Part shown: positions 2,155-64,000 of the stretch, in pieces
How the letters are laid out: every line of letters begins with the position of its first letter
Position numbering within the stretch: the stretch's first letter is position 1
Assembly: GCA_015179025.1 (NCBI GenBank)
Contig: WHUX01000063.1
Span: forward strand, 221,690 to 285,689
Origin: Terfezia claveryi
Lineage: Eukaryota > Ascomycota > Pezizomycetes > Pezizales > Pezizaceae
DNA length: 64,000 bases
Direction: 5' to 3'
Notes under the pieces: model-generated
Told to the model about the DNA's origin: nothing
The model's database searches: none
Seen by the model: only the letters and a program-made list of their open reading frames with translations
Translations under genes and position numbers: made by a program

Positions 2155-3786
2155 ATGCTTCCACCTATTCCGAAGCTCGAAGACCATTCGATCTCTTGCC
2201 GCAATGGCTTTCTACCTGACCATCTCCCCATACGGCGTCTTTCGGACCGATACTATGAACCATGGGAGGACCTCGTCGATAACCTTCAGGCACTGATTCT
2301 CACAAAACGTGTACGAGCAGCGGTAAACCTGTTACCTCTGCTATCCGTCTCCAGACTTCGAACCGAGCCAGAGCTCCAGAGGGCTTATTCAATTCTCGGG
2401 TTCATCTGTCACTCATACATCTGGGGAGGTGACCGTCCGGCACAAGTGAGTCCTGGGTTTTGAATCTGTCAACGCCAATGCTAATAATTACACAGCGTTT
2501 GCCTGCATGTATTTCAGTTCCATTTCTCAGGATTTCTGAAGCCCTCGAAATTGTACCAGTGGCGTCATATGCAGGGGTAGCACTCTGGAATTATCGAACC
2601 CTGTTTGGTTCCCAAGAAATCGACAATTTGAAGGATTTGGCTACTTTACAAACTTTCACAGGTAGTCTCGACGAGTCATGGTTCTACCTCGTTTCGGTAG
2701 CGATTGAAGCTCGAGGTGCCCCTGTGGTTCCTCGTATGCTAGAGGCCATAGCAGCAGCACGCGAGGGAGATGTGGATACCGTTCTCGAGTTCCTCAACTT
2801 TTTTGCTCAGATCTTGGAGGAGCTTACTGCCCTTCTTGTCCGTATGTACGAAAGCTGTGATCCACATGTCTTTTACTTCAAAATTCGTCCCTTTCTAGCA
2901 GGCTCCAAAAACATGGCAGAAGCTGGACTCCCCCAGGGAGTATGGTACGAGGATGAGGATGGAAAAGGCAGTTGGAGACAATACTCTGGCGGCAGTAATG
3001 CTCAGAGCTCACTTATCCAGGCTTTCGATCTTATTCTCGGAATTGGGCACCGGCCTACCGGGATCAAGAGACCGACTGGTGACGATTCTCACAAGCACGG
3101 CTCGGCCCCACCACAGAAACATAATTTCATTGAGGTAAAAATTTCCCATCAGGCATTTTAGACCCAATTACCTCATAAACCTTGGGTATTGAAGCTAACA
3201 GAATATGATGTAGGAAATGCGTGAGTACATGCCAGGTCCGCACCGTCGGTTCCTCGAGCGGCTTGCATCGGTAGCCAACATTCGGCCGTTTGTTGATGCT
3301 CATCGGGACAACCAAGATCTTTGTGACGCTTTCGATTCATGCCTCGCCATGCTCCGTGGGTTCAGAGATAAGCACATACAAATTGTCAGCCGATACATCA
3401 TCCTCCAGGCCAAAAATGCCAAGAAGCTCAGTACAGAGGCAGCGAAGATTACCCAAAACGTCCTGTCCACACCAGCTACTACACAAAAGGCAAACCTTGC
3501 TAGTACAAAAGCAACCAAAAATGGCCTGACCGGTACAGGTGGTACAGCACTCATTCCTTTCCTGAAGCAGGCGCGGGATGAAACGGGGGAGCCTGCAATG
3601 AGCCCAATTGCTAAAAGATTGCTTGTGCACAGCCCTGGGAAGAAAAGTGCAGTTGTATACGACAATGTCACTGTGGCTGCGGAACTCGATGCTGCCTTTT
3701 CTAACCCGGATGTGCCCGCGCCAATGGTTGGCTTGGCAGGATATTGGTTCAGTAGTAATGAATTTGGAGGACTGTGCTCGTACTAG
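2155..3786 (+). CDS. BNA2: Indoleamine 2,3-dioxygenase (IDO/BNA2 family), three exons
   Basis: Heme dioxygenase that opens the tryptophan indole ring to N-formylkynurenine, the first step of the kynurenine/NAD pathway, expected in the cytosol. Exons are 2155-2445, 2496-3134 and 3214-3786. The introns are GTGAGT..CACAG (2446-2495) and GTAAAA..GTAG (3135-3213), with CTAAT and CTAAC branch sites, and both junctions fall between codons. The product is about 500 aa, near the usual fungal length. It starts MLPPIPKLEDHSISCRNGFL, the family N-terminus, which supports the 2155 ATG. Further family blocks are AYSILGFICHSYIWGG (exon 1), ISVPFLRISEALEIVPVASY and AGSKNMAEAGLP (exon 2), GGSNAQSSLIQ, then EMREYMPGPHRRFLE and GFRDKHIQIVSRYI (exon 3). 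His364 in that last block aligns with the proximal heme ligand of IDO enzymes. GTGGTALIPFLKQARDET follows. The frame is intact throughout. Filamentous fungi often carry several IDO paralogs, so which paralog this is remains open. Confidence 0.95.
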
Positions 3787-26420: not shown

Positions 26421-28079
26421 CACCCACCACATGCACATACCTTTGGCACCACTTCTAGCGCCCCAACCCACTTCAACAATACCCCATGCGGAACATCGAT
26501 CAACCCTGCCTCAGCCAACTGCCTCACCCTTCATTCATTCATATAATCCCTATACGGTCTAGACCCAGCTGCGGTTGAGTTATGGAAGTGGCGTTTATGC
26601 TTTGGGGGTGGAGGAGAAGATTGCCCTTCGCAACTCTGCAACGGTTTTGAAAGCGGCAACAGCTGATGCAGGCTAGGATGAAGGATTCCATTGTGAATAT
26701 TTATGATCTGAGCTGCTTGCCAAATTGAAGAAGTAATAGGATGTAATATAGGATGTAAATTCACTAATAGAACTGTACAAAAACTTGTGGTGGCAAGAAT
26801 GACAGTTTGTGGTGTGGGAACCCTCTAGGATATCCCCTTCACCACTAGCCTGGTTGTACTTCGCCACCTATGAAAACGAAGGAAGTGGAAGACGTTATTA
26901 AACCCGTCTCGATCTCTAGTTGGAGGCCAGCCTAGTCTTGCTTGCCTAGCTTTATCCTTCGGTTGCAGAATCTGAGTAGACGGATACACTCAGCTTGTCT
27001 GGTTACCTTCATGATAATCACAAATGGCTGTTCCGAGGCTCAGAATCGAGCTAGGAGATCCTTCATGATGATAAGATCAGTATTATTGAATCCTCTCCAC
27101 GGGAGGGCATAGGGGGGGGATAGAACATAATTACCCTGAACTCAAAATAAACAACAAACCACCGCACAGGGCGCCATCACAGTAGCCAAATAATGTAAGA
27201 AAGTTGCAATTCTATAAGATGTCGATCCGCCCAAAGCCCAAATTTTTAAAGAAAACAAGCCTGATACACATGCTCGCATTGTCAGCCAGGCTCAAGGGGG
27301 TGCGGTCTAAGATTGTAGCTTACTTACTACTAATTATCTACTTTAGTATGGTGCTTCCTTTGTAGCAACGAATCCCGCGTGAGTTGAGGGTAATTTGAAC
27401 AGATGGCACCACTTTACTGTTACCCTCAAGTCCTGTGACAGCAGAACCTTATTCATGTATAAATAGCCTGTGGCTCTCGTTCTTGCTCCGTTTCCTTTTC
27501 TCTCCACCCAATGTCTTGTATCTTGAGCCGAGTTCCATCGCACTCGTCGGCAAAATAAATCTGCGTCTCCTACGCTTCAAGAAGAACGCGATTTTCAGGT
27601 GCTTTCATGTGCTTTCTGCGCTTCCGCAAATTCCTTTTGCGTCATGGGTAACAAATCGGATGCAGCCTATGTTCTAACCTTGCGCCCTAATATCTCCAAC
27701 AATAATAATCACTACCACAAGCACCACTATAATCCGTCAGAATTAGCTCTAAAATTACGCATAAAATCACCTACAGGAAGATCACCAGGATAAATCCTAC
27801 CATGACTGATACAATTGGCAGTGCAATCACCGTGAACATCAGGACTGAAATCACCATCTCAGAATTCCACTTTTACTGTATGCGAAGACATCGGGTGATG
27901 GTTCTAAGACCGTTGGATCTGGTTCTAAGATGACGGAAGCTGGTTCTCAGATAGTAGGAGGGGGATCCGACATCAGGGGGCTGGCAGAATGTGGATCCAC
28001 TACTTTCAACCTGCGATCGCCTGGGACTTGAAGATTTTTTTCCTGTTATACTATCTAGAGTCCACCTCTATGTACCCTC

Positions 28080-28290
28080 TGATTTCTAGGCTTATTACGG
28101 TGATACGGGCCTTTTGTGACGATGATTCTGGGTTGAGTAGAATGGTAATTTCTAGGCTTTTTTGCACGGTTTTACGGGGCCTATTTGGATGGTGATATCT
28201 GGGCTTATTTGCACGGCGATATGGGGTTTGTTTTGACGATTTCTTCTAGGTTGTTTTGCACGATGATTACTGGGCTTATTTTGGCGCGCC
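28080..28290. repeat. Imperfect G/T-rich short tandem repeat
   Basis: A loosely repeated phrase of about 30-35 nt (variants of TTCTGGGCTTATTTGCACGG followed by a TGATAT/GATGATT segment) recurs five or six times. It ends directly at the border with the AT-rich block. Confidence 0.55.
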
Positions 28291-28299
28291 TTCGCAAGT

Positions 28300-31045
28300 T
28301 AATTCTGATGGTGGCGATATATCTAGCTTATACTATCTTTATTTAATACTTCAAGCTTATAATAAATGTGCAACTTCTTTTTTAAATTTTCCAATATTAT
28401 CAGATTATAGAAATATTAGGTGAACTATCAAGTTGAATCTATAATATTGACTAATAATATTAGTATCATATTACTTATACTAATAAGTCTAACTTAGTAT
28501 TATATCTTTTAATAAAATAACTATATAGAAATTAAACTACTATCTAAAGTTAAGTTAATTATAATAGTAGTAATTAAATAAGAAAATTTTAATATTATTT
28601 ATATATAAAACCTCTTATATAAACTAAACTAGATCAAAATATACTATTTAACTACTCTAATCTAAAAAAAAGTTATTAATATTAATATTAATTTTAATAT
28701 GCACTATTAAGCTTACTATTAATATACTTTATTTTACTAAAAAGGCCTAATTCTATAATATTATATTATAAATAAGTATTTAAGTATTAAGTATTAAGTA
28801 TTATATATAATTATAAGTAATATACTAAGGAAAAAAAAACTAATATATATATAATAAATAAAATAGTAGAATTGAAGTATTTAAAAATTAAGTAAAGTAA
28901 AAAGGTTTAAGCTATATTTAGATAGATATTATAGGTCTAGATATAAAAAAATAAATAAGTTATTATATAAGAAAGAAAGATAATATAGAAAGTAAAATTT
29001 AGTTTTTTCTATAAAAATTTTTAAATAAACTAATTTAAGTATTAGTAAAAAAAAAATAGTATTTAGATATACTATTTAGTATTTAAATATAAGAGCTTAC
29101 TTAAATATATTCTATATATTCTATATATTAGAGATCTTTCATACTCTTATCTAGACTAATTAGTACTCTAGCCATATTTCTACTATACTCTCGTCAATAC
29201 AATAGTTATAGCTTAACACTTTATCTAGATCTTATGAGTAATTTAGTATAGTTCAAGAACTATAGTTTCCTTATCTATAACTTTGATAGTAGAATTCTCA
29301 ATAACTATAACCTCTCCTAACCTATTTAAGCTACCTGCTTCATCACTAAGATATCCTTTATTAGTTTCTATAGACTAAGTAAAAAGCCAAATATTGGAAG
29401 AGCTAGAAATAAGAGGTTTTGTAGTGGTAGAAGAGATGGCAGCTATAGTAGTAAAAGTAGTTAAGAAAAAAGTAAAGAAAGTACTTAAACTATAGGAAAC
29501 AAAAAAGATTAAATAGCAATCATAGTAAGACTAGCTGCTAGTAAAGCAAGTCCTTATTAAAGATCCTTTTGAAAGTGTAAGGGGTTAGACTTTAAAATTG
29601 TAGGAGGCTATATTAGTTATGCTGGTATTAATAAAGCCAATAGCTATTATTCAATCTGCTATTACTTGCAAAAATCGATATAGAGCTTTAATTAAATTAC
29701 ATAAGGTAAAGAACTTGTTCTTTAAAGTTACTATTTATACTAATTATATAAATAGGCTGAAAACTCACTATTTCTTTAGAAAACTAGAAGAGGTTTCTAA
29801 CTATATTTGAGATATAGATAAAAGATGAAATCTAATTTAGTTAGAGCAATAAGTCCATAATCCTATAGTTAAGGCAGAAGCTAAGTATAAGCTTAAAAAA
29901 TTAGAAGATAATAGGAAAAAGATAAAGGATGAAGCAATAAGAAGTCAGGCTAAATTGAATTCAGTTAGAAAAAAGAAGGTAAAAAAAAAGTAGTAGAAGA
30001 GAAATAATAAGTTGCAAGTACTACAAGATTTATTAGAACAGTTAAAAGAGTAGGAAGTTGAGGAGAAAATCTAGTTGGAGACTATATAAAAGGAGAAGTC
30101 TGAATTTAGAGTGACTTTACTATAATAAAGTTAGTGTATAGAAGTATCTATAAATTTATTAGTTGCCGAACTTCAATAAAATAAAGAAAATCGAGCATAG
30201 GAATATTGGGAACTTTTACTAGTATTACTTACTACTGTATAATATCAAGGTTTAGAGTCTTTAAGTTCTGATTTATTGGGTTCAAAATTATCTTGACTTT
30301 GGAAGTAGTCCTCTAATACTGATAGATATACTTAGTATAGTCCATCAAAGTATTTGTTGATTTGATTTCCATTTAAATAGGTATATATATTATATAATAT
30401 AGTAGTAGTAATATAATGAATAGTACTAGACAGTATTCATTTAGTACTATTTATATAATCTATATTTATAGGTATAGATATTTATGTATTTCAGTTCTAC
30501 TAAGATAAGACTTCAGAAGGGTAAAGAGATTACTATGTAGGACATTCCTCAAGAGAATAGTAATTAATTAGTATAATCTATCTTATATGATTTATGCTAT
30601 CTAAGCTATATGATCTTGATCTGATCAGAATATAGGCTTGTTTGCTACTGAGTACTTACTTGCTTTTTCTTTTTGTAGATTTCAAAGAGAATCCAGTAGC
30701 CTATTTATACTCCTCTGAGATCTGATAACTAAAGAAATAAATACAATAAAGAGTAGTATACCAGAAAGTAGTGCACTATACAAAAGAGGTTATATGGCCA
30801 TAGTAATAAGTCACATGCCCTAAAATAAGGTCACACAGCCATAATAAGGGTGTATTCATATGGCAAGTTCCATAGAATTTCCTATAGTAGATTCTACATA
30901 CTATAGACATTTATAAAGCAGTAGAAATTGGTAGAAGGCTAGTCCTTTGACTAAGAGGCTTAGTTACATAATATAGTAGTAATATAGAAAATACAAAAAG
31001 TATATAATCAATTATATAAGCAATGAAATAACATTCTCTATTACA
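28300..31045. repeat. AT-rich, RIP-like degraded repeat block including the 3' LTR of element R
   Basis: GC content drops abruptly near 28300, and long runs of A/T words (ATTATA, TAATAT) fill the block. Relic coding on the plus strand near 29390-30100 (lysine/glutamate-rich, many TAG/TAA stops, e.g. KLKKLEDNRKKIKDEAIRSQ) looks like part of a dead transposon protein, class undetermined. The right-hand part, up to 31045, should be the 3' LTR of the minus-strand element R: on the minus strand it starts TGTAATAGAG at 31045, directly after a purine stretch (GAGAAG) at the expected polypurine-tract position. The far LTR boundary could not be fixed. Confidence 0.65.
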
Positions 31046-34000
31046 CTTCTCTATATAGAAGAATTTACTATCCTTACTTCTCTTACTCTACTATATTGGT
31101 TTCTATACATCTTAAGATTTAATGCATTATTAATACATTAGTATTAATATGAATATCTTTAGTATTTCCTTAACTTATAAGTCTATCTCATTTCTATTGG
31201 ATAAGAGCTCGAGTTTATCTCTAGTTCATAGTCTTTGTTTTCCTCCAGTCATTCAATGTCTCTTGAATATATCTTCTATACTTCCGGTTATCTAGAAGTC
31301 TTAGAGAATTTTGGTAGTGATATCCTTGGCATTTACTCAAGAATTATGTTTAGGAGAGTATCTTAGCCATCTAACCTTATATTGTCTTTCTCCAGTTCTA
31401 GGAGCTGTTTTGAATTCTAATACCTTTTCAAGTTCATAATAATCATCTTGAATTAGTCCCAGTTCCTGAGATTGCCTATTAGGGAACTAGGTAGGATCAT
31501 TTTTATAATAGGGTTTAAGTTTACTAATATGAAAATTATTATATATGAGGTGGAGGTTAGGTTGACTGGATAGGTCTAAGCTATAGTTATTGTATTTCTG
31601 ATTATCAGAAACAATAGGAAATGGGCCTAGCTATTTTGGTTTAAGTTTAAGTAAGACATTCGATAGATTAATATTTTTTGAAGAAAGCATAACTTGTTGT
31701 CTGACTGAAAATTTGACTATATTGGGTAGTTGTTTGTTCGCTTGAGATGCTTGAGTCTTTTTAGTATTATATAGGTTTTTAGATATTACCTCATGACATT
31801 TGTTTGCTAGTACATATACATTAATAGAGTATAGAAGTATCAATACACTAAAATATATATTAAAACTAAATAGTATAGAAAAGGGGCTATTCTGTCTAGT
31901 AGTATTATACCTAGAGTTAAGTTTCAACTATATCTCTAGTAGTTTCTGTAGCCAATCAAATCCTTCAATTTTACAGGCTCTCACTACTTGCAGAAATTTT
32001 TTATTCATAATTTCTAATTGTCTATCTACACATAGATGATATGCAGTAGATGGTTCCAACTTAATTCCTTTATTTCTAGCCCAATCTTGAAAATGTGTTG
32101 ACATAAAAAAAGTGTTACAGTCAAAAACAATTCAAAAAGGGTATTCTATAGTTGAGACTATATAAGTATCAAAAGTAGTAGTACATTATTCTGCTGTGAA
32201 GTTATCTGAGATAGGAATAAGAAACTTGAATCCTGATTATCTATCGACAATTGTTCAAAGTTATAAAATACAAACTATATGATCTTCTTCAATAGGAATA
32301 TTTAGGTGCAAAATTAAATACTTAGTAAATACAGGTACTAACTTCAAAAAATCTATTAATATATCTATCAATAGTCTACTTGATATATGTAATGGGGTTA
32401 CAAGTCCAAGTAGTACCTTATTAGAATACTTTGTCTATTAACAAGTATCATAACTTCTAATATAGTCCTTAGTTAGTTCTGTAAAGAACTGGCAATCATA
32501 TCAGTTAGTAAGATATTTCATCATTTTTTCAATACTATTATAAGTAGTTGCTTCATGTGCATTCTTAATAACTAATTTAAAATAGTTCTTACCTTTAATA
32601 TTAAAGGTAGAAAGCAAGACCAATTTCCATTGTCCTTATTGGTTCTTGATATACAAAAATCTATCTTTTCTCCTATGATCTTTATGATTCATAAAGGTAT
32701 TATAGTAGTTCTTCTAGATAGGACATACTCTTATGCATGATTGATATATAGCTTTTATACCTATACCTTGGTCTAGCCAATATGTAATGAAGTAGTCTTT
32801 GTTAACTACCTATCCGTTGCTAATATAGTTCTCTTCAATAAGCTTGTTAAGGATTAGTTTGATTCTTTGATTGAAATCATTAATAGTAGATTTCTTTTGC
32901 TTATATATAGAAGTATTATATCCTAAGAATATACAGAAATCACAATGTTGTCTAGAGGTCTTGGTGTTTTGAATGAAGGAGGGTGCCGGGCCTTCATCAA
33001 TAGCTACTTGCTTTTGAAAACAAGTGGTAATAGTAGTAGTGTTGATTAGAATTGCATTGCTACTACTAGTAGTTGCAGCCAGTTGTTAAGGTACATTCCA
33101 TAGTTGTTGAGGGGCAATAGGGGTATCCATGATCTCCTATTCCATTTGTCAGGTACTCATTTGTTCAGTAGGGTTACTGAACTAAATGCTGGGTTAGAGA
33201 GAGGTATGTATTAGCTTGTTGGTATTCCATTTCTTTACCTATTCCTTAATTTTATAGATAGCTTCTTCATAGTTGAGAGCTTGTAGAGGTGAATATACTG
33301 GTATTTATTGTACTGGTGCTAGTTCCTTTCGAGACTTATTTGTAGATATGAGATATGTAATATGAGTTGTAAGGAATTCCTTCTTCTTCTTAAAAACTAA
33401 GGCTGATAGGTCATAGTTCAAACTATTATATCTATAGTGGTTACAAATTGCATATGTTTTAACAGTAAACATGCAGTTGTTCATGGCATGGGAGCTGCTA
33501 TGAGTTAGACAGTAGAAATCTTAACAAAAGGACTAATATATCCTTTTGTATTGTTACTAATTGCTGTAAGCAAGGTCAATAGCAATTTCCTGCACTTCTT
33601 TAGGAGCAAGGGCATTTTGTTGAGCATCTTCAGAAGTAGAAGGCCTATATTTCAGTTCAAAAACTATTAAAGGTTTGTTCTTATTTATATTAGGTATATA
33701 ATTATACCCACTAAAAACTTCTTCTGGTATGGTAGACAGAGTCTCATCATCTGAGGACTCTTCTTTCTTCATCATATTATATTCACTTTCTTCATCCTAG
33801 ATACTCTTAAAGTATAGATAGAAGATATGGTGTCCAAGTTCTTTGGCTCTTCCATGACATTTATTAAAGTCACAGTTGACATACTTGAAATTGATAGCTC
33901 TATTGGAAACCATTTTGTTCTAAGTAGAGGTTTCTAGTAAGTGGAAAGTTTTTAAAACATTGGTAAAGATATTGCAGTTATAGGTATAGTTAGGAGGATT

Positions 34001-47307: not shown

Positions 47308-50300
47308 TTGGGTCATTTATCTTTGTCTGTGTTTTCTTTGCCTACATCTATGTCTGTTGATGAGTCTCGCCTGTTTGGCGAGCACTTCGTTGTACCTATA
47401 ACTGTCAAGTTCAATGATAAAATAGTGGTTACATTAGCTCTCATAGATTGTGGTGCTTCAGGAATAGCATTCATTGACCAGACCTTCGTCAGTAGAAACT
47501 CTATACCAACCTCCAAGCTAAAAACCCCCCGCCTTCTTGATGTCATTGACGGCCGCCCTATCTCTTCTGGGGCGATTACCGACCTCGCATGCCTGCCCAG
47601 CGCCATGGGTGATCACTCGGAAGATCTCCTAATGTTCGTGACAAAGCTCAAATACCCGATTGTACTCGGAATCCCGTGGCTGAGAATGCATGATGTATCA
47701 GTCAGCTTCGGCTCTTATACCCTGTAGTTCAACAGCCAGTATTGCAAAAAGCACTGTGGGAATCCGAGGGCTACCGTTACTGGGCTGTGTGCCTTACCAC
47801 CCCCGATAATGCACCCGATCCAGGTGGCACACCTGTCTGCGCACATCGATGCCAATTCCCCTGTTCCCCCTGTCCCCCCGTGCCCCCTGTCCCTCCCGCA
47901 TCTCCTGGCTCTCCTGGTTCCCCAAAGTCCCTCAACATTAGCTTTATCGGGGCAGGGGCTTTCGCTTACCTCACCAGGAGGCACAAGCTGAAGGCTCATG
48001 CTCTGTCCATACATGAGGTAAATCTGGAGATTGGTAAGACCCGGTCGAAGGAGGAGTGGAAGTCCATGGTCACGGACGAATACTACGAATTCATCACCTG
48101 TTCTCGGAAAAGGCCGCAGAAAAACTCGCACCCCACCGGCCATATGACCACACGATTCCGCTGATAGAGGGTAAAACCCCTCCCTATGGGCCCCTCTACG
48201 GAATGTCCCGGTTGGAGCTGGAAGCTTTGAAGAAATACTTAGGAGGAAAACCTCAACAAGAGCTTCATTCGCCACAGCTTCTCACCAGCGGTGCCCCAGT
48301 GCTTTTCGTGAAGAAATCAGACGGCTCTCTCCAGTTGTGTGTCGATTACCGGGGCCTAAACGAGATAACGGTCAAAAACAGGTACCCCCTACCCCTAATC
48401 CAGGAGACATTAGCCAGGCTTTCCAAGGCAAAATGGTTCACCAAATTGGACTTGAGAGGGGCGTACAACCTGGTACGGATCGCTGAGGGGGAGGAGTGGA
48501 AAACTGCCTTCCGGACACGTTACGGCCACTTCGAGTACAACTCATGCCCTTCGGCTTGACCAATGCCCCAGCCTCTTTCCAACACTTTATTAACGACACT
48601 CTGCGAGACTTCCTGGACGTGTTCTGCACGGCTTACCTCGATGATATCTTGATCTATTCAGATACTCTGGCAGAGCACAAAATCCATGTCAGGCAAGTCT
48701 TGGAGAAGCTGGAGCAGGCTGGGCTGTACCTTAAGCCTGAAAAATGCAATTCCACGTCCAAGAGGTGAAGTACCTAGGCTTGATCATAACCACGGAAGGT
48801 ATTAGGATGGACCCCGCTAAAGTTGCTGCAATCCAAGAGTGGGAAACCCCAGCCAATTTGAAGGATGTGCAGGCCTTCCTAGGATTTGCCAACTTCTACC
48901 GCCGATTTATCCTGGGATACTCAAGAATCGCGGCACCCCTGATGGCCTTGACGAAAACGAAGGTAGAAGCTGGCTCACACCTGACAAAAAGGGCCTTCCA
49001 CTGGAATCCAGAAGCCCAATCCGCCTTCCAGAACCTCAAGGAAGCCTTCTGCTCAGCCCCAATCCTGGCCCATTTTGACCCTGATAGCGAGTGCATCGTG
49101 GAAACGGACGCCTCCGACTATGTCTCCGCGGAATCCTGTCCCAGTATGTCATGGAGTCCTCACCAGTGGCCTATTTCTCCAAAAAGCACTCCCCGGCGGA
49201 GTGTAATTACGAAATCTATGATAAGGAGTTAATGGCCATTGTGCGAGCATTCGAGGAATGGAGACCACACTGGAATCGGCAAAGGGGGTTATCGAGGTCC
49301 TCTCTGACCATAAGAACCTAGAGTACTTCACAACCACCAAATTGCTAAATCGCCGACAGGCAGGTGGTCGGAATTCCTCTCTCGGTTTAACTTCAAGATA
49401 AGGTATCGGCCGGAAAGGCTGGGGTAAGCTGGATGCACTGACCAGGAGATCAGGAGATCTCCCTAAAGGGGGGATGAAAGGCTGAAGTATCAGAATCAGG
49501 TGGTACTGAAACCTGAAAATCTCGACCTGGCGGCCAATACCCTTGCTGAAGCTAGGGCTGAGGCTGACCTCCGACAACTAGTGAGACAGGCATACAAGGA
49601 CGACCCCCTGGCCAAAGAAATTATCACCGCAGTGGATTCTGGCCAGCGCCGCCACCCAAGATCTCCCTAGCCGAGTGTACCATCCAGGAAGGCCTCCTCT
49701 ACCACCTCGAACGGCTGTATGTGCCGGAAGGAGAGCTGCGCCTTCGATTGATAAAGGAACACCATGACAGCCTGGTTGCAAGTCACCCTGGAGTGGCCAA
49801 AATGTTAGAGCTTCTGGCCAGGGAATACACATGGATTGACCAACGGAAGGACGTAGAGCGGTACATACGGAACTGCCACATTTGCAAGCATGCTAAGCCT
49901 GTCCACCATGCCCCGTATGGGACCCTGAAACCTCTGGATATCCCTGATCGGCCATGGCTGCACCTGACTATGGACTTCGTGACAGGGTTGCCAGAAGATT
50001 CGGGGTTCAATGCCATCTTGATGGTGGTAGATCGGTTGACGAAAATGAGGCATGTTATACCTTGCCGGGACACCTGCTCCACCCCAGAGTTAGCCAATCT
50101 CTACCTCAATAATGTATTCCGATATCACGGCCTCCCCGAATCCATCGTATCCGACCGCGGCCCTCAGTTCACCTCAGAATTCTGGCAAGCCTTCTGCAAG
50201 CTATTGGGGATCAAAGTGCGTTTGTCAACCGCATACCACCCCCAGACGGATAGCCAATCAGAGAGGATGAATGCCATTATGGAGCAATATCTGCGGGCCT

Positions 50301-51010
50301 TTGTTGACTACCAGCAGGATAACTGGGTTTCGTTACTAGCCACCTGCGAATTCGCCGCGAACAACCAGTTCTCGGAATCCTCCAAAACCTCGCCTTTCCT
50401 GGCTAACTACAGTTGGCACCCCCGGTTCGTAGATGCCCTAGCGCCCCTGCAAAAAGCCAAAAAAGATGCCCCGGCCAAGGAGTTCGCAGCTGGGATTGCT
50501 GAGCTCCACTCTACCCTGAAAGCTGAGCTGGGATATGCACAAGCTAGGCAAGCCGAGTATGCTAACGGATCACGGTTACCAGCCCTCAGATATCAACCAG
50601 GGGACAAGGTGTGGCTCTCCAGCCGGCACTTCCGGACAGAACGGCCATCTCGCAAGCTCGACCACAAGTTCCTGGGTCCATTCGAGGTTTGGCTGCTGTG
50701 GGCACTCACGCCTACCGATTGAGGTTCCCCAAGGACATCAAACGCCATCCGGTTTTACACGTATCGGAAATTGAGCCAGCGGCTGACGATCCCCTCCCAG
50801 GGCAGAAACACCCCCCACCCCCTCCAGTGGTTATCGAAGGTGAAGAGGAATGGGAGGTGGAGGAAGTGCTGGACTCGTGAAAGAGGTATGGGCATCTGCA
50901 GTACAAGGTTAAATGGGTAGGGGACGAGGAGGCTACCTGGCAACCCGCTGAGGACCTGGAAAATGCTCAGGATCTGGTCTCCCTGTTCCATCAGCGATAC
51001 CGAGGAAGCC
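47308..51010 (+). pseudogene. Element C pol (protease, RT, RNase H, integrase, chromodomain)
   Basis: The protease with LIDCGASGIAFID ends at a TAG (47725-47727) where element A has CAG. The RT at 48050-48760 keeps [22 protein letters not shown] and YLDDILIYS. RNase H lies about 49090-49400. The integrase (49721-50722) is the longest intact frame: zinc finger H..H..CHICKH, LTMDFVTGLP, IVSDRGPQFTSEFW and QTDSQSERMN, giving the DDE triad. A chromodomain (EEWEVEEVLDS.KRYGHLQYKVKWVG) ends near 51000. Relative to A the main defects are single-base deletions, many in homopolymers (e.g. GAATTCATCACC near 48090, TCCGCGGAATCC near 49125). Chromodomains of this class target insertion to heterochromatin. 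Confidence 0.88.
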
Positions 51011-58601: not shown

Positions 58602-59441
58602 CTGGCTAGCAGCTCTAGGGTTTTAGCAACTCCAGGGTGGCTAGTGGCTAAAGTATCATGGTGCTCCTTAATTAACTTTAAGCAGAGCTTGTCATCTGCA
58701 GGAATATAGAGATAGTCTAGGTAGTAGAGAAGGCTATCTTAGATCAAGTATTCTATGAGGAAAATCTTCATATGGTGATACTGTCCAGATTCTACTGTAG
58801 CAATTATATCTCTAACCAGGGGGTCCTCTGCATAAGCCTACTATACCTGCTGAAGGAGGTCCACTCCAAGGTTCAGTCTAGCTTCCACATGAGCATTAGC
58901 AGCAAGGGTATTGGCTGCTAGGTCAAGATTTTTAGGTTTCAGTACTACTTGATTCTGGTACTTCAGCCTCTCATCCCCTTCTTTAGGGAGATCTGCTAAT
59001 CTTTTAGTTAGTGCATCCGGCTTACCCCTAGCTTTTCCAGGCCGATACTTGATTTTGAAGTTGAATTGAGATAAGAACTCCAACCACCTAGCCTGCTGTC
59101 AGTTCAGCAGCTTGGTAGTAGTGAAGTACTTAAGATTCTTATAATCAGATAGCACCTCGATGATCCTCTTGGCTGACTCCAAGTAAGGCCTCCATTCTTT
59201 AAAAGCTCAGACAATGGCTATTAATTCCTTATTATAGATCTCATAATTATATTCCATTGGAAAGTACTTTTTGGAGAAATAGGCCACTGGGTAGAGGACT
59301 CCATTGATATACTGGGACAAGATTCTGGCAGAGACATAGTCAGAGGTATCTGTTTCCATGACACATTCACTATCGGGATCAAAGTAAGCCAGTATGGGTG
59401 CTGAGCAGAAGGATTCTTTGAGGTTCTGGAAGGTGGATTTA
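58602..59441 (-). pseudogene. Element D RNase H and integrase N-terminus
   Basis: On the minus strand [20 protein letters not shown] and METDTSDYVSARILSQYING begin the RNase [21 protein letters not shown] follows, then integrase HHDTLATSHPGVAKTLELLAR up to the element E insertion. Right of 59441 the homology ends abruptly. Confidence 0.82.
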
Positions 59442-59457
59442 GTGTGCACCACGGAGC

Positions 59458-59565
59458 GAGTACAACTTAGACCTGATCGCCAAGACCCGCCTCAGCAAGC
59501 GAGTTTTGGAGTTTCAACAACTCGCCGAGTCGGCTTTCCTGTCCTACAACTCGACTCGTGATTAA
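59458..59565 (+). other. Orphan coding-like fragment next to the element D truncation
   Basis: A 35-codon frame ending in TAA reads SEYNLDLIAKTRLSKRVLEF and QQLAESAFLSYNSTRD. The bias (AAG ACC CGC CTC; C-rich third positions) looks like coding sequence and unlike the adjacent D relic. It may be the 3' end of a gene or transposon ORF whose upstream part was lost at the D junction. I do not recognise it. Confidence 0.3.
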
Positions 59566-59724
59566 TCGGTGATCTACAGATTACTCGCCAAGCCTACCCT
59601 GTTTCCTTTTTTTTTTTTATTGTTTTGTCCCAACTCTTCTATAATCTTATCACGTTTAACACCCTCATTCCGTTCTCCTATATCTTGGTTGTCTTTGTAT
59701 GACCGATTCTTTCTACCTTCACGG

Positions 59725-59920
59725 GTTGCTTGCATGGTGCCAGATTGCTTGTCTCATATTACTTGCACTATTATGGATTGTATGCACTGTGCCCGATTGC
59801 CTGTCATGGATTCCTTGCACTGTTACGGATTCCTTGCTTCTTTTACTATGCCAGATTGCCTGTCACGGATTGCTTGCACTGTCACGGATTGCTTGCACTG
59901 TCACGAATTGCTCCCACCCG
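59725..59920. repeat. Imperfect 20-bp minisatellite
   Basis: Unit close to GTCACGGATTGCTTGCACT, six to seven imperfect copies, the last two nearly exact (59869-59910). The GTCACGGAT word also forms the 12-bp repeats in the 60.95-kb and 63.63-kb introns. Confidence 0.7.
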
Positions 59921-60242
59921 CTGACAAACAATACTAGCAATCTGTACTACACGGCCAAACAAAATCCTTACCCAAATATCAGTTAAGAAATATATTAATA
60001 TACCTTAAATAAATTACAAGACCCGTCACCATGACTATAACAAAAATCCTTCCCACATCCTACAAAACCTGAAAAATCCTTCCTAACCTCACTTGAGTTT
60101 ACCAATAATCCCCCGTAAATCAATTCATACAACTATACAACATAGAAAGAAAAAAAAAAAACTCTTCAAAGCAAAACCAAATGCCCTAAAGTTCCCTAAA
60201 AAAAGCACTTGGCTGGTGGGATGGTGTTCAACTGGTAGGAAG

Positions 60243-60425
60243 TCAGGTACCGGAACCTAATTCGCTAAAGATTCCAATATTTACCTTGGCTGTCAGGCGT
60301 TCGGGTATCTGTGTTCCTTGGTAATTGACATCTAAACCGGAATCGTATAAATCAGGGCCGTCCCTCTTCGACCATTGATGTAAACCTCCCCACGTTGTGG
60401 TCGTTCTTGTAACTATATATTTCAT
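60243..60425 (-). CDS. Short hypothetical ORF (60 aa), possibly a first exon
   Basis: ATG at 60425 on the minus strand; the product begins MKYIVTRTTTTWGGLHQWSK and has a plausible hydrophilic composition (DGPDLYDSGLDVNYQGTQIP). The end of the frame contains a GTAAAT donor-like site after ERLTAK (near 60284), with a branch-like CTGAC and a TACCAG acceptor about 50 nt on. It could therefore be a spliced gene with a longer second exon. No family recognised; may be a chance ORF. Confidence 0.25.
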   Translation of the reverse strand: MKYIVTRTTTTWGGLHQWSKRDGPDLYDSGLDVNYQGTQIPERLTAKVNIGIFSELGSGT

Positions 60426-60499
60426 CTTCAGTAACAGTGAACCTTCTGCTAAGTGATGTATGGTATGCTAACACAAGGGAATGATTATTGGGTACCTGC

Positions 60500-60720
60500 G
60501 CCTCCTCCTCCTGCTGCCCCTCTGCCTGCTACTGCCCCCACCGTTGCTGCTGCTTCTCCTCCTCCTCCTGCCCCTGGTCCTGCTCCGGCTGCTGCTGCTG
60601 CTGCTACCACCGCCCCTGGTCCTCCCCCTGCCCCTGGTCCTGCTCCTGCTGCTGCTGCTGCTGCTGCTCCTCCTCCTCCTGCCCCTGCTGCTGCTGCTGG
60701 CCCTCCTCCTCCTGCTGGTT
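60500..60720. repeat. GCT/CCT-rich triplet repeat tract
   Basis: Interrupted (CTG)n and (CCT)n runs. All six frames give homopolymer-like peptides (Pro/Ala, Leu, Cys/Ser, Arg/Ser), so long ORFs here are by-products of the repeat. It lies just 3' of the histone-like gene on the minus strand. Confidence 0.85.
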
Positions 60721-60766
60721 ACAGTACTGCACGGCGTCCTCTTTTTGCTTTTTGGGGCATTCTGGC

Positions 60767-61418
60767 TCACAAGAGGTACATGTGGAAATGCCCCCAGCAA
60801 ATTACCCCTGGCCAATATATTCGCCTGAATTTTATGCCATAGTCTAACATCCGCTGTAGGATTGTTTGTCTATTGTGTGTTTCACCGCCTTGTGTTGCAA
60901 TCAGGTTCACCGCTTTTTCCGTATTCGTGATTAGTCATATTTGTCCGTCATAGCATCCGTGACAGCATCCGTGACATATTTTAACTTACTGGTGAAATAC
61001 TTATGCATATATGCTTCCGCCACCTCCTGTATGGCATCTGTTGCCCTCACTTGGATATACTCCACATTATTCCGATCTATGAACTGCGAGTATTTGTCAT
61101 TATTATCCCTATTCACGTCTTGTACAATCTCCCTGCACAGCCTGCAGAATGCAATCTTCGGAAATATTAGGTCAACGCTTCTCTGTTGATTCCTAATCTG
61201 ACGTACGAGGCTGACTGATAATAAGTTAGATTAGTCCTTTTTACTTCATGGAATGGAATGCTTCATGGAATGGAATGCTAACGTCCTTGTGACCGCTTTC
61301 TTATGGTTTTTGGTGCCACCACTTTTTGGGGAGGCATGACTGATTTTATATTCCTAGGGACTTGTGACCTCACTGGTTGCCCGGGGTTTTTCTTCGGAAC
61401 CTGCTTTGTTCTTGCCAT
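60767..61418 (-). CDS. Divergent histone H3-like protein, three exons
   Basis: Exons run from 61418 to 61283, 61214 to 60990, and 60912 to 60767. Introns are 68 nt (GTTAGC..TATCAG, CTAAC branch) and 77 nt (GTAAGT..AAAAAG, CTAAT branch), both phase 1. The 168-aa product begins MARTKQVPKK: H3 residues A1-Q5 with K4, then K9, are kept; K14 and the rest of the tail are not. After RKRSQG, residues 46-79 align ungapped to H3 alpha-N/alpha-1 (LVRQIRNQQRSVDLIFPKIA, CRLCREIVQDV versus H3 REIRRYQKSTELL..KLPFQRLVREIAQDF). Loop 1 is about 14 residues longer than in H3 (NRDNNDKYSQFIDRNNVEY). Alpha-2 follows (ATDAIQEVAEAYMHKYF versus AVMALQEASEAYLVGLF), then VNLIATQ in place of TNLCAIH. The alpha-3 region and C-terminus are unlike H3. 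A longer loop 1 is known from centromeric H3, but identity as CENP-A is unproven. Spliced frames are intact. Exon 3 is the least certain part. Confidence 0.7.
60945..60985. repeat. 12-bp tandem repeat inside intron 2 of the H3-like gene
   Basis: On the minus strand the unit is GTCACGGATGCT, about 2.7 copies. If read through, it would encode VTDAVTDAMTD and stop, so it lies in the intron rather than in the protein. Confidence 0.7.
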
Positions 61419-62199
61419 TCTTCTATGTTAGCTGGTTAAAGGAGGCGATGAACTTGGTGACCCAGGGGCGATAGTGATGATCTTATATGAGACAAGCAAC
61501 ACAGAGCGTTGTGGGGATCCAGACCTAACTATCAAACAATGAATCCAATTTGCCTGCATGTTCCCTCAAGTTAGCTTAGATACATCGATAAAGGAAACCC
61601 GACAAAGGAAACGGACAAACGAAACCTGACAAAGGATATCGACAACTAGCTGTTAGGCTGTTAGTCGTGTACACAATTAAGCTGAACAAGCATCGTCGTG
61701 GCAGATTAACTCGCCTTTTGCCAAATTCCCCAGGGGACTGACTCATTTTGGCCCCCTTAACGGGGCCGTATATGGGTTACTTTTGCCTGCAGGTGGGCTG
61801 GGATTACCGGAGGAGACCAGACAAGCTGAGAGGTGATATATACTAGAGTATATATATATACCTATCTGTCTCATATGCAACCTTAGAACACCGAGGGACT
61901 AGTGCAAGCCGACTCGTGAGTTGTACCCAGTCTAAGCCTGCACTACTAGCCTAATATACCGGGCTTGTGTCAACCAGACTATACCTTAAGTACTCTATTG
62001 TCCACCTAGCGACTAGTCTATACTAACCTATTGCTGTATCCAAAAGAACAATAAATAACAATCCTGACCCACAATGATATATCAAACAACCAATACCAAA
62101 CATTCTATCAGACGACAAGGAAATAGAGAAATAATTGCTGGACAACATAGGGATCTGGGACAAAATATAAATTCCATGACAAAGTGTAAGCTCCATGAC
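61419..62199. other. Non-coding spacer upstream of the H3-like gene
   Basis: No coding signal. Contains a TATATATATA tract near 61850-61860 and a purine-rich direct repeat (GACAAAGGAAAC-type words near 61585-61640). The promoter of the H3-like gene must lie in its left part. Confidence 0.45.
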
Positions 62200-62264
62200 A
62201 CCCTATACGTGGTCATTATTCATCTTGTTCTTCTCCTTCGACATCATCCTCTCCTTCACCTCTT

Positions 62265-62405
62265 TATTCTCTTCATCCTCTTTATCCTCTTCATCCTCTT
62301 CACCCTCTTCATCTTCTTCATCCTCTTCATCCTCTTCACCCTCTTCATCTTCTTTATCCTCTTTACCCTCTTCATTCTCTTCATCCCCTTCTTCCACTTC
62401 ATTCT
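62265..62405. repeat. CTTCATCCT/CTC-type microsatellite
   Basis: Interrupted 9-bp/3-bp pyrimidine repeat (units TTCATCCTC and TTTATCCTC). On the minus strand it encodes the Glu/Asp-rich tail of the neighbouring decayed gene; in other frames it gives Ser- or Leu/Phe-rich artefacts. Confidence 0.85.
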
Positions 62406-63621
62406 CCTCAATCCCCTCCACATCCTCGTAATCATTATCATCTGTGTCGCTCGGGATAAGTCTGGGGGTAAATCGCCACCAAGATGAGGCAATCCTTTTT
62501 GACGTAGCCTCAATACTGGCTATAATAGAGTTTCGATTATACTATCCTTTACCGAATATACCTTGGCATCATCGTTGGAATCAGTAAGCTGGCCTCAGCA
62601 TCAGATGATGAAAGGTCGTCCTCTAGAACCTGGCCATCGCTTTCATCCTCGGAGTCCTATGCTATAGTGAATAATATATCACACTTCTGAAGGGAGAGAT
62701 ACATATGGGTTCAATATCCTCAACTGCATCACTTAAACAATCTTCCGCACCCCCTTCAGCTATTTCCATTTCCTGTATGATCCGATCAGCTATAGCAATT
62801 GCATCATCCTATGCATGTGGCTGTTCAATTGGCCCTCGAACTGTACGTATGCTTAGCGTGAAATGGGCTCAACACTAACAACGACACTAAACTCATTTAC
62901 TGGCTTTGTTCCCGTTTCTTCCAAATCATCTTCTGGAATTGTAAATGCTGGTATATTATCACCTTCGCCTAGCTCAAGTTAAAACCTCTTCTGCACTTGG
63001 GAGAGCCCATACCAGCGATATAAAATATACGCCTTCTTTCGAACTAACATTACCTCCCAGGTCTTTTGGACAAGTCATTCGAACTTGCCGCGTTGTACAT
63101 CACTGAGCTGATTCCTCTTCGTCCCAATTGGTGCACCGGTAACAGTGTCATGCTCACTCTCCGCCATGCCAGCTTTGAGAGCCTGTTAACTTTTGGCACT
63201 TCTAGTCCTTGGCTCGTTCGAACGCTAGAAGTGGACCCAGCAATCTTTTCTAAGTTTCCCGATTTTTCTGGTATGTGGATTGGTTGATATTCCCCAAACT
63301 TTACGACTCCACTAAACTCTTTGTCTAGGTCGAATTCTTTTGAGTCCCAAGGAAATTCCACATACTTCTCATATGGGTTTACTGGCGTAACTGGGGCTAG
63401 GGCAGGCGTGGCTAGGATAGGCGTGACTGGCACAATTGTCACAGAAGTCTTTCTCCGTTTGCGTTTATCTGTTGTTCGATTCCCGATATTGTGTTCCTCT
63501 TCGATGGCATCTTCTTTTCTGTATGGGGCCTACTATTATGATCCTTGCTTTGATAGTCTGTTTTTTTGGCTACACGCTTTCTTGTTAGATCTATGGACGT
63601 CCTGGACACCGTCCGTAAACC

Positions 63622-63658
63622 ATCCGTGATACTATCCGTGACACCATCTGTGACACAG
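63622..63658. repeat. 12-bp tandem repeat inside the large intron of the decayed gene
   Basis: Three copies of ACCATCCGTGAC (plus strand; complement GTCACGGATGGT), the same motif as the intron repeat at 60945-60985. It lies between the GTATGT donor at 63701 and the next coding exon near 63520. Confidence 0.75.
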
Positions 63659-64000
63659 CCCTTGGAGCACTTTGGATCACGCACGACCTTGGAGCACATA
63701 CCTGCAGAAATAAGGCCTTCTAACCGGCGCTGGCGATAGCCAATAGTGGGTATTATACTGGACGCAGTGTGAAACTTCTACAATTCAGCGAATTACACTA
63801 TCTTTCCAATTCAGGCAACCCACAAGGACACAACCTTTGAATATTCTGAGGCCAAGTTATGTGGGTTAAAATGTCTGTGATGTCTCTGTCAGTAATCTTT
63901 CCACCCGCAACTTGCATAGCTGGTCTCTAGTTACAGAACTTAAAGCACTTACCCTGAATTATCGTGAGCACAATTTATGTAGTTGAACTAATGTTTGTTG

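Follow-up and report, generated by a model that had tools for sequence, protein, structure and literature searches.

Large hAT DNA transposons that carry a gene resembling histone H3 are already known in fungi, where they have been read as carriers of a captured H3. Here we describe such elements in Terfezia claveryi, starting from an H3-like gene (H3L) in a window of 64,000 nucleotides (nt) of contig WHUX01000063.1 (C590:221690-285689; genome 72.56 Mb, 794 contigs). Among the papers cited here, two described systems stand closest. The hAT element of Pyrenophora tritici-repentis holds a transposase, a central open reading frame (ORF) and an H3L with expressed sequence tags (ESTs) (Manning et al., 2013; PMC3538342). 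It forms one family of 26 very similar copies, with elements of 5.6 and 2.3 kb, that was judged to be recently expanded; its H3-like protein falls outside both H3 and CENP-A, and the authors, who wrote that H3L 'may have undergone drift', raised the question of selective pressure on transposon-captured genes (PMC3538342). Similarly, hAT elements with H3-like copies occur in Pseudocercospora fijiensis and five relatives (Dhillon et al., 2019; PMC6710886). These elements are about 9.5 kb long, with a 20-bp terminal inverted repeat, an 8-bp target site duplication and C-to-T decay; one H3-like type has a 16-residue insertion that is not in the host H3, and the family has DUF659 and no dimerisation domain (PMC6710886). 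All copies are dead and intron-less, and were read as a captured transcript (PMC6710886). In the same source, the Pyrenophora element has no similarity to the elements of six other species, and its H3-like copies group nearest to host H3 (PMC6710886). The words 'histone' and 'H3L' do not occur in a further text (PMC9594970).

In T. claveryi the carriers of H3L are large hAT DNA transposons. By repeat comparison, the elements of H3L subfamily A have a common right border and a long left arm, and one complete A element of 12.6 kb (C773:772295-784890) has inverted ends, TAGTGTGCGCCACGGGGCGAGT, that agree perfectly at 22 of 22 bp, with a perfect 8-bp target site duplication (TGAGTATT) flanking it on both sides. 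Subterminal repeats lie near both of its ends, which also show inverted similarity to one another. A hAT dimerisation domain was found in this element at C773:773774 (E 2.7e-19, one internal stop), and Dimer_Tnp_hAT was matched in the transposase of a B element (E 2.6e-9); the DUF659 and RNase-H matches of the transposase stayed under the cut-off. The transposase lies near the left end on the strand opposite to H3L, and in the complete element H3L stands between the inverted repeats, with the divergent transposase on one side and a second reading frame, ORF2, just upstream. The element in the window runs off the contig, which ends at C590:285689, the last base of the window, and its left end and transposase fall outside.

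Compared by description only, the Pseudocercospora elements resemble those of T. claveryi as long hAT elements with terminal inverted repeats, an 8-bp target site duplication, an H3-like gene and C-to-T decay, but the T. claveryi elements have introns, some intact folds, a dimerisation domain and companion genes (PMC6710886). From the Pyrenophora element, again by description only, the T. claveryi system differs in an element length of 12.6 kb, a split into six divergent subfamilies and the constraint measured on both H3L and ORF2 (PMC3538342). What is added here, as far as a limited literature search tells, is a single genome in which a constrained gene set bears introns and comes in several subfamilies.

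The gene in the window is a decayed H3L copy from this group of transposons. A first-pass annotation had drawn a spliced gene beginning MARTKQ, and its exons, introns, GT..AG sites and agreeing splice phases were all borne out (Table 1). The assignment to H3 also stands, as the window copy, read through its intron, scores 30.1 bits against PF00125, for which the Pfam cut-off is 26.4; exon 2 of sister copies scores 32.0 bits (A) and 35.4 bits (B). Loop 1, which had been called extended, has 14 residues more than that of the genome's own H3. However, the 'non-H3 C-terminus' that had been reported reflects a one-base deletion in exon 3 relative to the sister copies. The frameshift has cost the window copy its alpha-3, and because fold-intact paralogues read on into alpha-3 this C-terminus is decay; a novel C-terminus as a real feature is thus ruled out. 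It is true that the window copy has no stops, but only since the shifted frame chances to stay open to 60767. The proposal that this is a non-canonical H3 variant with a tie to a mobile element was right, the gene sitting inside a hAT transposon. That it might be a single-copy host variant is ruled out by its many copies inside hAT elements, and the check on whether it is extra gave a clear answer: canonical H3 (C153) and CENP-A (C773:158053) are both present in the genome, so H3L does not substitute for a missing one.

In the genome as a whole, PF00125 matched at 40 places, 39 of which were fetched (C1:708787, inside copy L012, is without a separate reading). Thirty-three read as H3L-type copies, the window's own included; the remaining seven comprise CENP-A, canonical H3, H2A-type histones, an NF-Y-like protein and one unread place beside an H2A gene. 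The histone and RPB1 sequences read as those of a filamentous ascomycete. H3L was found at about 100 places (101 kept, as one row per place chosen by eye: 94 from the listed rows of 171 matches, and seven of subfamilies D and F). Six divergent subfamilies, A to F, carry common signature residues, and R-[LV]-C-R-E-I-V is present in all six (one row each) where host H3 and CENP-A have RLVREI[AS]. The A and B cores share 57% identical residues.

By sequence, the family encodes the whole H3 fold with an enlarged loop 1. In a check that covered 17 copies of A and 10 of B (and did not include L029, of B, or L041, L043 and L053, read as A), three A copies (L025, L026, L030) and two B copies (L016, L019) were intact, a term used here for the histone fold alone; L024 and L015 are stop-free with a changed first donor site. 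Exon 3 of L025, L026 and L030 reads through the stretch aligned with H3 alpha-3, and an H3 chain is the best PDB match of both spliced L026 (E 1.6e-11) and spliced L016 (E 6.9e-11), each match spanning alpha-1, alpha-2 and alpha-3. Loop 1 exceeds that of host H3 by 14 residues in A, B, C and E and by 11 in D and F. All gene models from A, B, C and E have an exon 2 of exactly 225 nt, and their two introns keep the same places and phases. By alignment, and in H3 numbering, these four subfamilies have proline at the position of R63 and Q at that of H113, and the residues aligned with R116, T118, I119, D123 and L126 are kept. The tail starts ARTKQ in A and E (VRTKQ in L025) and AGTKQ in B; around K9, KKNPG (A), RNVKT (B) and RNIKT (E) replace ARKST.

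The same companions recur beside H3L. ORF2 precedes an acidic reading frame, both being upstream of H3L, and ORF1 (EVPATPSE...), whose A and B forms have no Pfam match, lies further upstream in A, B and C copies. ORF2 gave 133 rows of genome matches, from 100% identity down to 28%, and the arrangement was counted at 96 places kept by eye, one per place, against 149 of 150 hAT rows. H3L follows on the same strand, 0.5-6 kb downstream, at 64 of the 96, and lies upstream at two and on the opposite strand at one. A hAT domain stands 2-12 kb upstream on the opposite strand at 35 of them, the other three arrangements being seen 3, 2 and 1 times. Counted from the 101 H3L places, ORF2 is upstream on the same strand at 64, among the matches listed. 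Furthermore, six of the seven D and F places (on C27, C90, C143, C245, C667 and C746) have ORF2 upstream of H3L, and on C27, C90 and C143 the hAT domain is also in the expected place. ORF2 was suggested by eye to be an HMG-box protein, which we do not claim, as it has no Pfam match. In the ORF2 of subfamily C (L018, C512:174873) a stretch of about 60 residues is duplicated internally and in frame, with LPKTEVQGPRVVPTRLARVQRVQQFAVVISVVPINRHAYAKFEEPIEG present twice.

An ongoing question is whether genes captured by transposons come under selection, and several subfamilies of different age in one genome make it testable. For H3L and ORF2 a first answer, from codon positions, points to yes. Across 110-112 core H3L codons, stop-bearing codons left out, differences at positions 1/2/3 number 16/16/44 between B and C, 11/11/44 between B and E1, 16/15/50 between C and E1 and 44/25/61 between A and B, a third-position excess with one-sided binomial p from 9e-4 to 3e-8 (3e-8 for B-E1). 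In ORF2 the counts are 44/43/123 for A-B (p 6e-14) and 46/36/89 for B-C (p 4e-7). Because transversions alone still show the excess, in H3L (B-C 8/8/21, B-E1 6/9/23, C-E1 11/8/26) as in ORF2, C-to-T decay is not its source. Nonsynonymous and synonymous divergence (dN, dS) by NG86 are 0.150 and 0.872 for B-C, 0.104 and 0.905 for B-E1, 0.111 and 0.853 for B-E2, 0.149 and 1.227 for C-E1 and 0.159 and 1.274 for C-E2, and dN/dS among B, C and E1/E2 ranges over 0.11-0.17 (NG86) or 0.12-0.26 (YN00). E1 and E2, close copies of one subfamily, differ by 1/4/3 with no third-position excess, as expected for copies decaying freely after insertion. These patterns point to H3L and ORF2 differing between subfamilies in the manner of constrained proteins. 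Judged by how differences fall over the codon positions, by an exon length and intron places that stay fixed and by a gene order that recurs, H3L looks like a long-maintained element gene. The earlier surmise that selection may be acting holds for the family, between subfamilies, and not for the frame-shifted window copy.

The copies themselves decay in a characteristic way. Fifteen A copies compared with L026 (gaps uncounted) show 409 C>T against 12 T>C changes, and the C>T rate per site is 0.119 at CpG, 0.053 at CpA, 0.022 at CpC and 0.017 at CpT; the decay of A copies is methylation-like or like repeat-induced point mutation, CpG first. L025 and L026 have distinct right flanks and differ at one of 1,167 aligned sites (gaps uncounted), so subfamily A moved recently.

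On balance we lean to the reading that H3L is a divergent H3 gene in the working gene set of large hAT transposons, and that its histone is used by the element. The complete element, the hAT domain, the recurring gene order, the intact folds, the third-position excess, the dN/dS values, the motif common to the six subfamilies and the recent movement of A all speak for it, as do the ESTs for the H3-like gene of a similarly built published element (PMC3538342). The element would make H3L, which would enter nucleosomes with H4, and such nucleosomes might form chromatin that is less open to host silencing. From general knowledge, the altered residues around the K9 equivalent could hinder a K9 methyltransferase. 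Loop 1 is a chaperone-facing region in H3 variants, and a dedicated partner would recognise its enlarged form; the candidate for this role is ORF2, which has an acidic tail. A selfish element encoding a core histone would open a direct route to studying how silencing depends on what chromatin is made of, and an H3 able to accommodate a 14-residue insertion in loop 1 is a natural experiment in histone design.

Several observations weigh against an element-used histone. One of the two elements examined, of subfamily B, has both kinds of end without a matching target duplication. In the copy check, 22 of 27 A and B copies are not intact, and the tail past the fold is unstable, L025 and L026 ending in different frames. 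For A-B the excess is weak in transversions alone (25/16/31), and subfamily A is at or near dS saturation against the others. Furthermore, third codon positions have diverged more than the introns (0.91 and 0.76 identical between B and E1) and more than the DNA upstream in B-E1, and because of this dS may be inflated and dN/dS underestimated. ORF2 itself has no Pfam match above the cut-off. The expected H3L is absent at 32 of the 96 ORF2 places and ORF2 at 37 of the 101 H3L places, among the matches listed; contig ends and decay may explain the missing neighbours at these roughly one-third of places. An AlphaFold2 model of the window's exon 2 alone has a mean pLDDT (predicted local distance difference test) of 54.5, to which we gave no weight. 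Finally, H3L might work for the host, or as a decoy.

The published accounts of Pseudocercospora (PMC6710886) and Pyrenophora (PMC3538342) favour transduplication without function, in which a host H3 or CENP-A is captured by a hAT element and drifts as passive cargo. The 22 broken copies, the strong C-to-T decay among the 15 A copies and the introns that are less diverged than third codon positions would all fit this account. However, subfamilies whose third positions have strongly diverged still differ mostly there, exon 2 stays at 225 nt and the introns keep their places and phases in A, B, C and E; far subfamilies, too, show the order with ORF2. Passive cargo should lose constraint, exon length, introns and gene order, all of which are kept, and we therefore think it rather unlikely. 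A decoy encoded by the element would act outside nucleosomes, weakening silencing through a free tail or fold that binds the H3K9 methyltransferase or the histone chaperones of the host. It could explain the retention of ARTKQ or AGTKQ in A, B and E beside a fold evolving as fast as the A-B comparison indicates, and the proline and Q at the R63 and H113 positions would suit it as well. The conserved fold, the loop 1 length and an alpha-3 with its R116, T118, I119, D123 and L126 equivalents go beyond what a tail decoy needs, which makes this account quite improbable. Pattern matches fell in viral contigs, 6 with ORF2 and 30 with the H3L alignment, but tblastn found no relative, and a viral origin was set aside.

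A more far-reaching form of the element-used histone is also conceivable: a transposon lineage with its own chromatin, built on a loop-1-enlarged H3 variant that ORF2 would deposit and that would keep element DNA away from host H3K9-based silencing. In its boldest version, the scattered H3 'captures' in print would be one old, co-inherited gene set and not repeated accidents. We hold this to be unlikely. The odds of one old co-inherited set are lowered because the Pyrenophora element is unlike the others and its H3-like copies are nearest to host H3 (PMC6710886).

The relation of H3L to the host histones bears on whether it could be a centromere-type histone, borne by elements that target or mark centromeres. 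The host CENP-A (C773:158053) has S. pombe Cnp1 as its best PDB match (153 bits, against 141 for the best H3 chain). Core identities to host H3 and CENP-A are close, respectively 34 and 36 (A), 38 and 34 (B), 35 and 35 (C) and 39 and 36 (E) of 87, 27 and 30 of 86 in D, and 31 and 34 of 81 in F; D and F lean slightly to CENP-A. Thus A, B, C and E are 39-45% identical to host H3 over 87 core columns, and H3L has neither the near-invariant sequence nor the loop 1 length of H3. A tree puts A, B, C and E in one group and D and F in another, weakly and with long branches; a single origin of H3L from host H3 or CENP-A is possible. The best PDB match of D is fission-yeast CENP-A (2.1e-7), with H3 close behind (5e-7), its sole genome match outside elements is the host CENP-A, and the tail stretch TGRKTIVG (read in L017, C27:17016; L052 and L054 are further D copies) is common to D and the host CENP-A, hinting that this subfamily derived from, or converged on, CENP-A. 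This lean of D, the slight one of the A core and a loop 1 longer than that of H3, which with the H3 fold is a likeness to CENP-A/CenH3, would favour a centromeric role. Yet CENP-A/CenH3 is a separate host gene whereas H3L is multi-copy in transposons, H3 comes first among the PDB matches of A and B, the cores of B, C and E stand no further from host H3 than from CENP-A, and the Pyrenophora H3L is reported in neither the H3 nor the CENP-A group (PMC3538342). A centromeric role, which the first-pass annotation had also raised, is the account to which we give least credence, and we consider it improbable.

The host H3 has its own peculiarity. The sole canonical-type H3 by PF00125 (L010, C153:8707-8961) has three introns as read and an unusual tail, KQIKQQFQQAAHKVARKVAHTSNSG, after residue 19, which makes the tail several residues longer than in standard H3. 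Provided that it is no artefact, an altered K27 region in a host H3 would itself stand out.

Table 1. Features located in the window (positions counted from its first base)
Feature	Position	Strand	Basis or remark
Indoleamine 2,3-dioxygenase-like reading frame, host-type gene, far end of window	2433-3161	+	PF01231, E 3.7e-77
Retrotransposon integrase part, probably Ty3-type	49568-50722	+	Integrase_H2C2, rve, SH3_Tf2-1
Right-hand part of hAT-type transposon with H3L cassette	59440..64000		Terminus; repeat unit in common with L022, L024, L025, L026
Terminal inverted repeat, right end relative to H3L, starts TAGTGTGC	59440..59461		Two changes relative to the sister's 22-bp repeat
Subterminal 19-bp tandem repeats TTGCACTGTCACGGATTGC	59797..59912		Repeat analysis
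H3L exon 3	60767..60912	-	Loop 2, alpha-3; frame-shifted in window copy, fold-intact copies elsewhere in genome
H3L intron 2	60989-60913	-	77 nt, GT..AG
H3L exon 2	60990..61214	-	225 nt; alpha-N, alpha-1, enlarged loop 1, alpha-2
H3L intron 1	61282-61215	-	68 nt, GT..AG
H3L exon 1	61283..61418	-	Encodes MARTKQ... tail
9-bp tandem repeat, region of acidic reading frame after ORF2	62254..62410	-	Repeat analysis
ORF2 remnant, broken, upstream of H3L	62835..63347 (C590:284524-285036)	-	49% identity, internal stops

Elsewhere in the window, positions 28001-34000 form an AT-rich block of 25-31% GC between flanks of about 45%, the composition that repeats strongly mutated from C to T should have.
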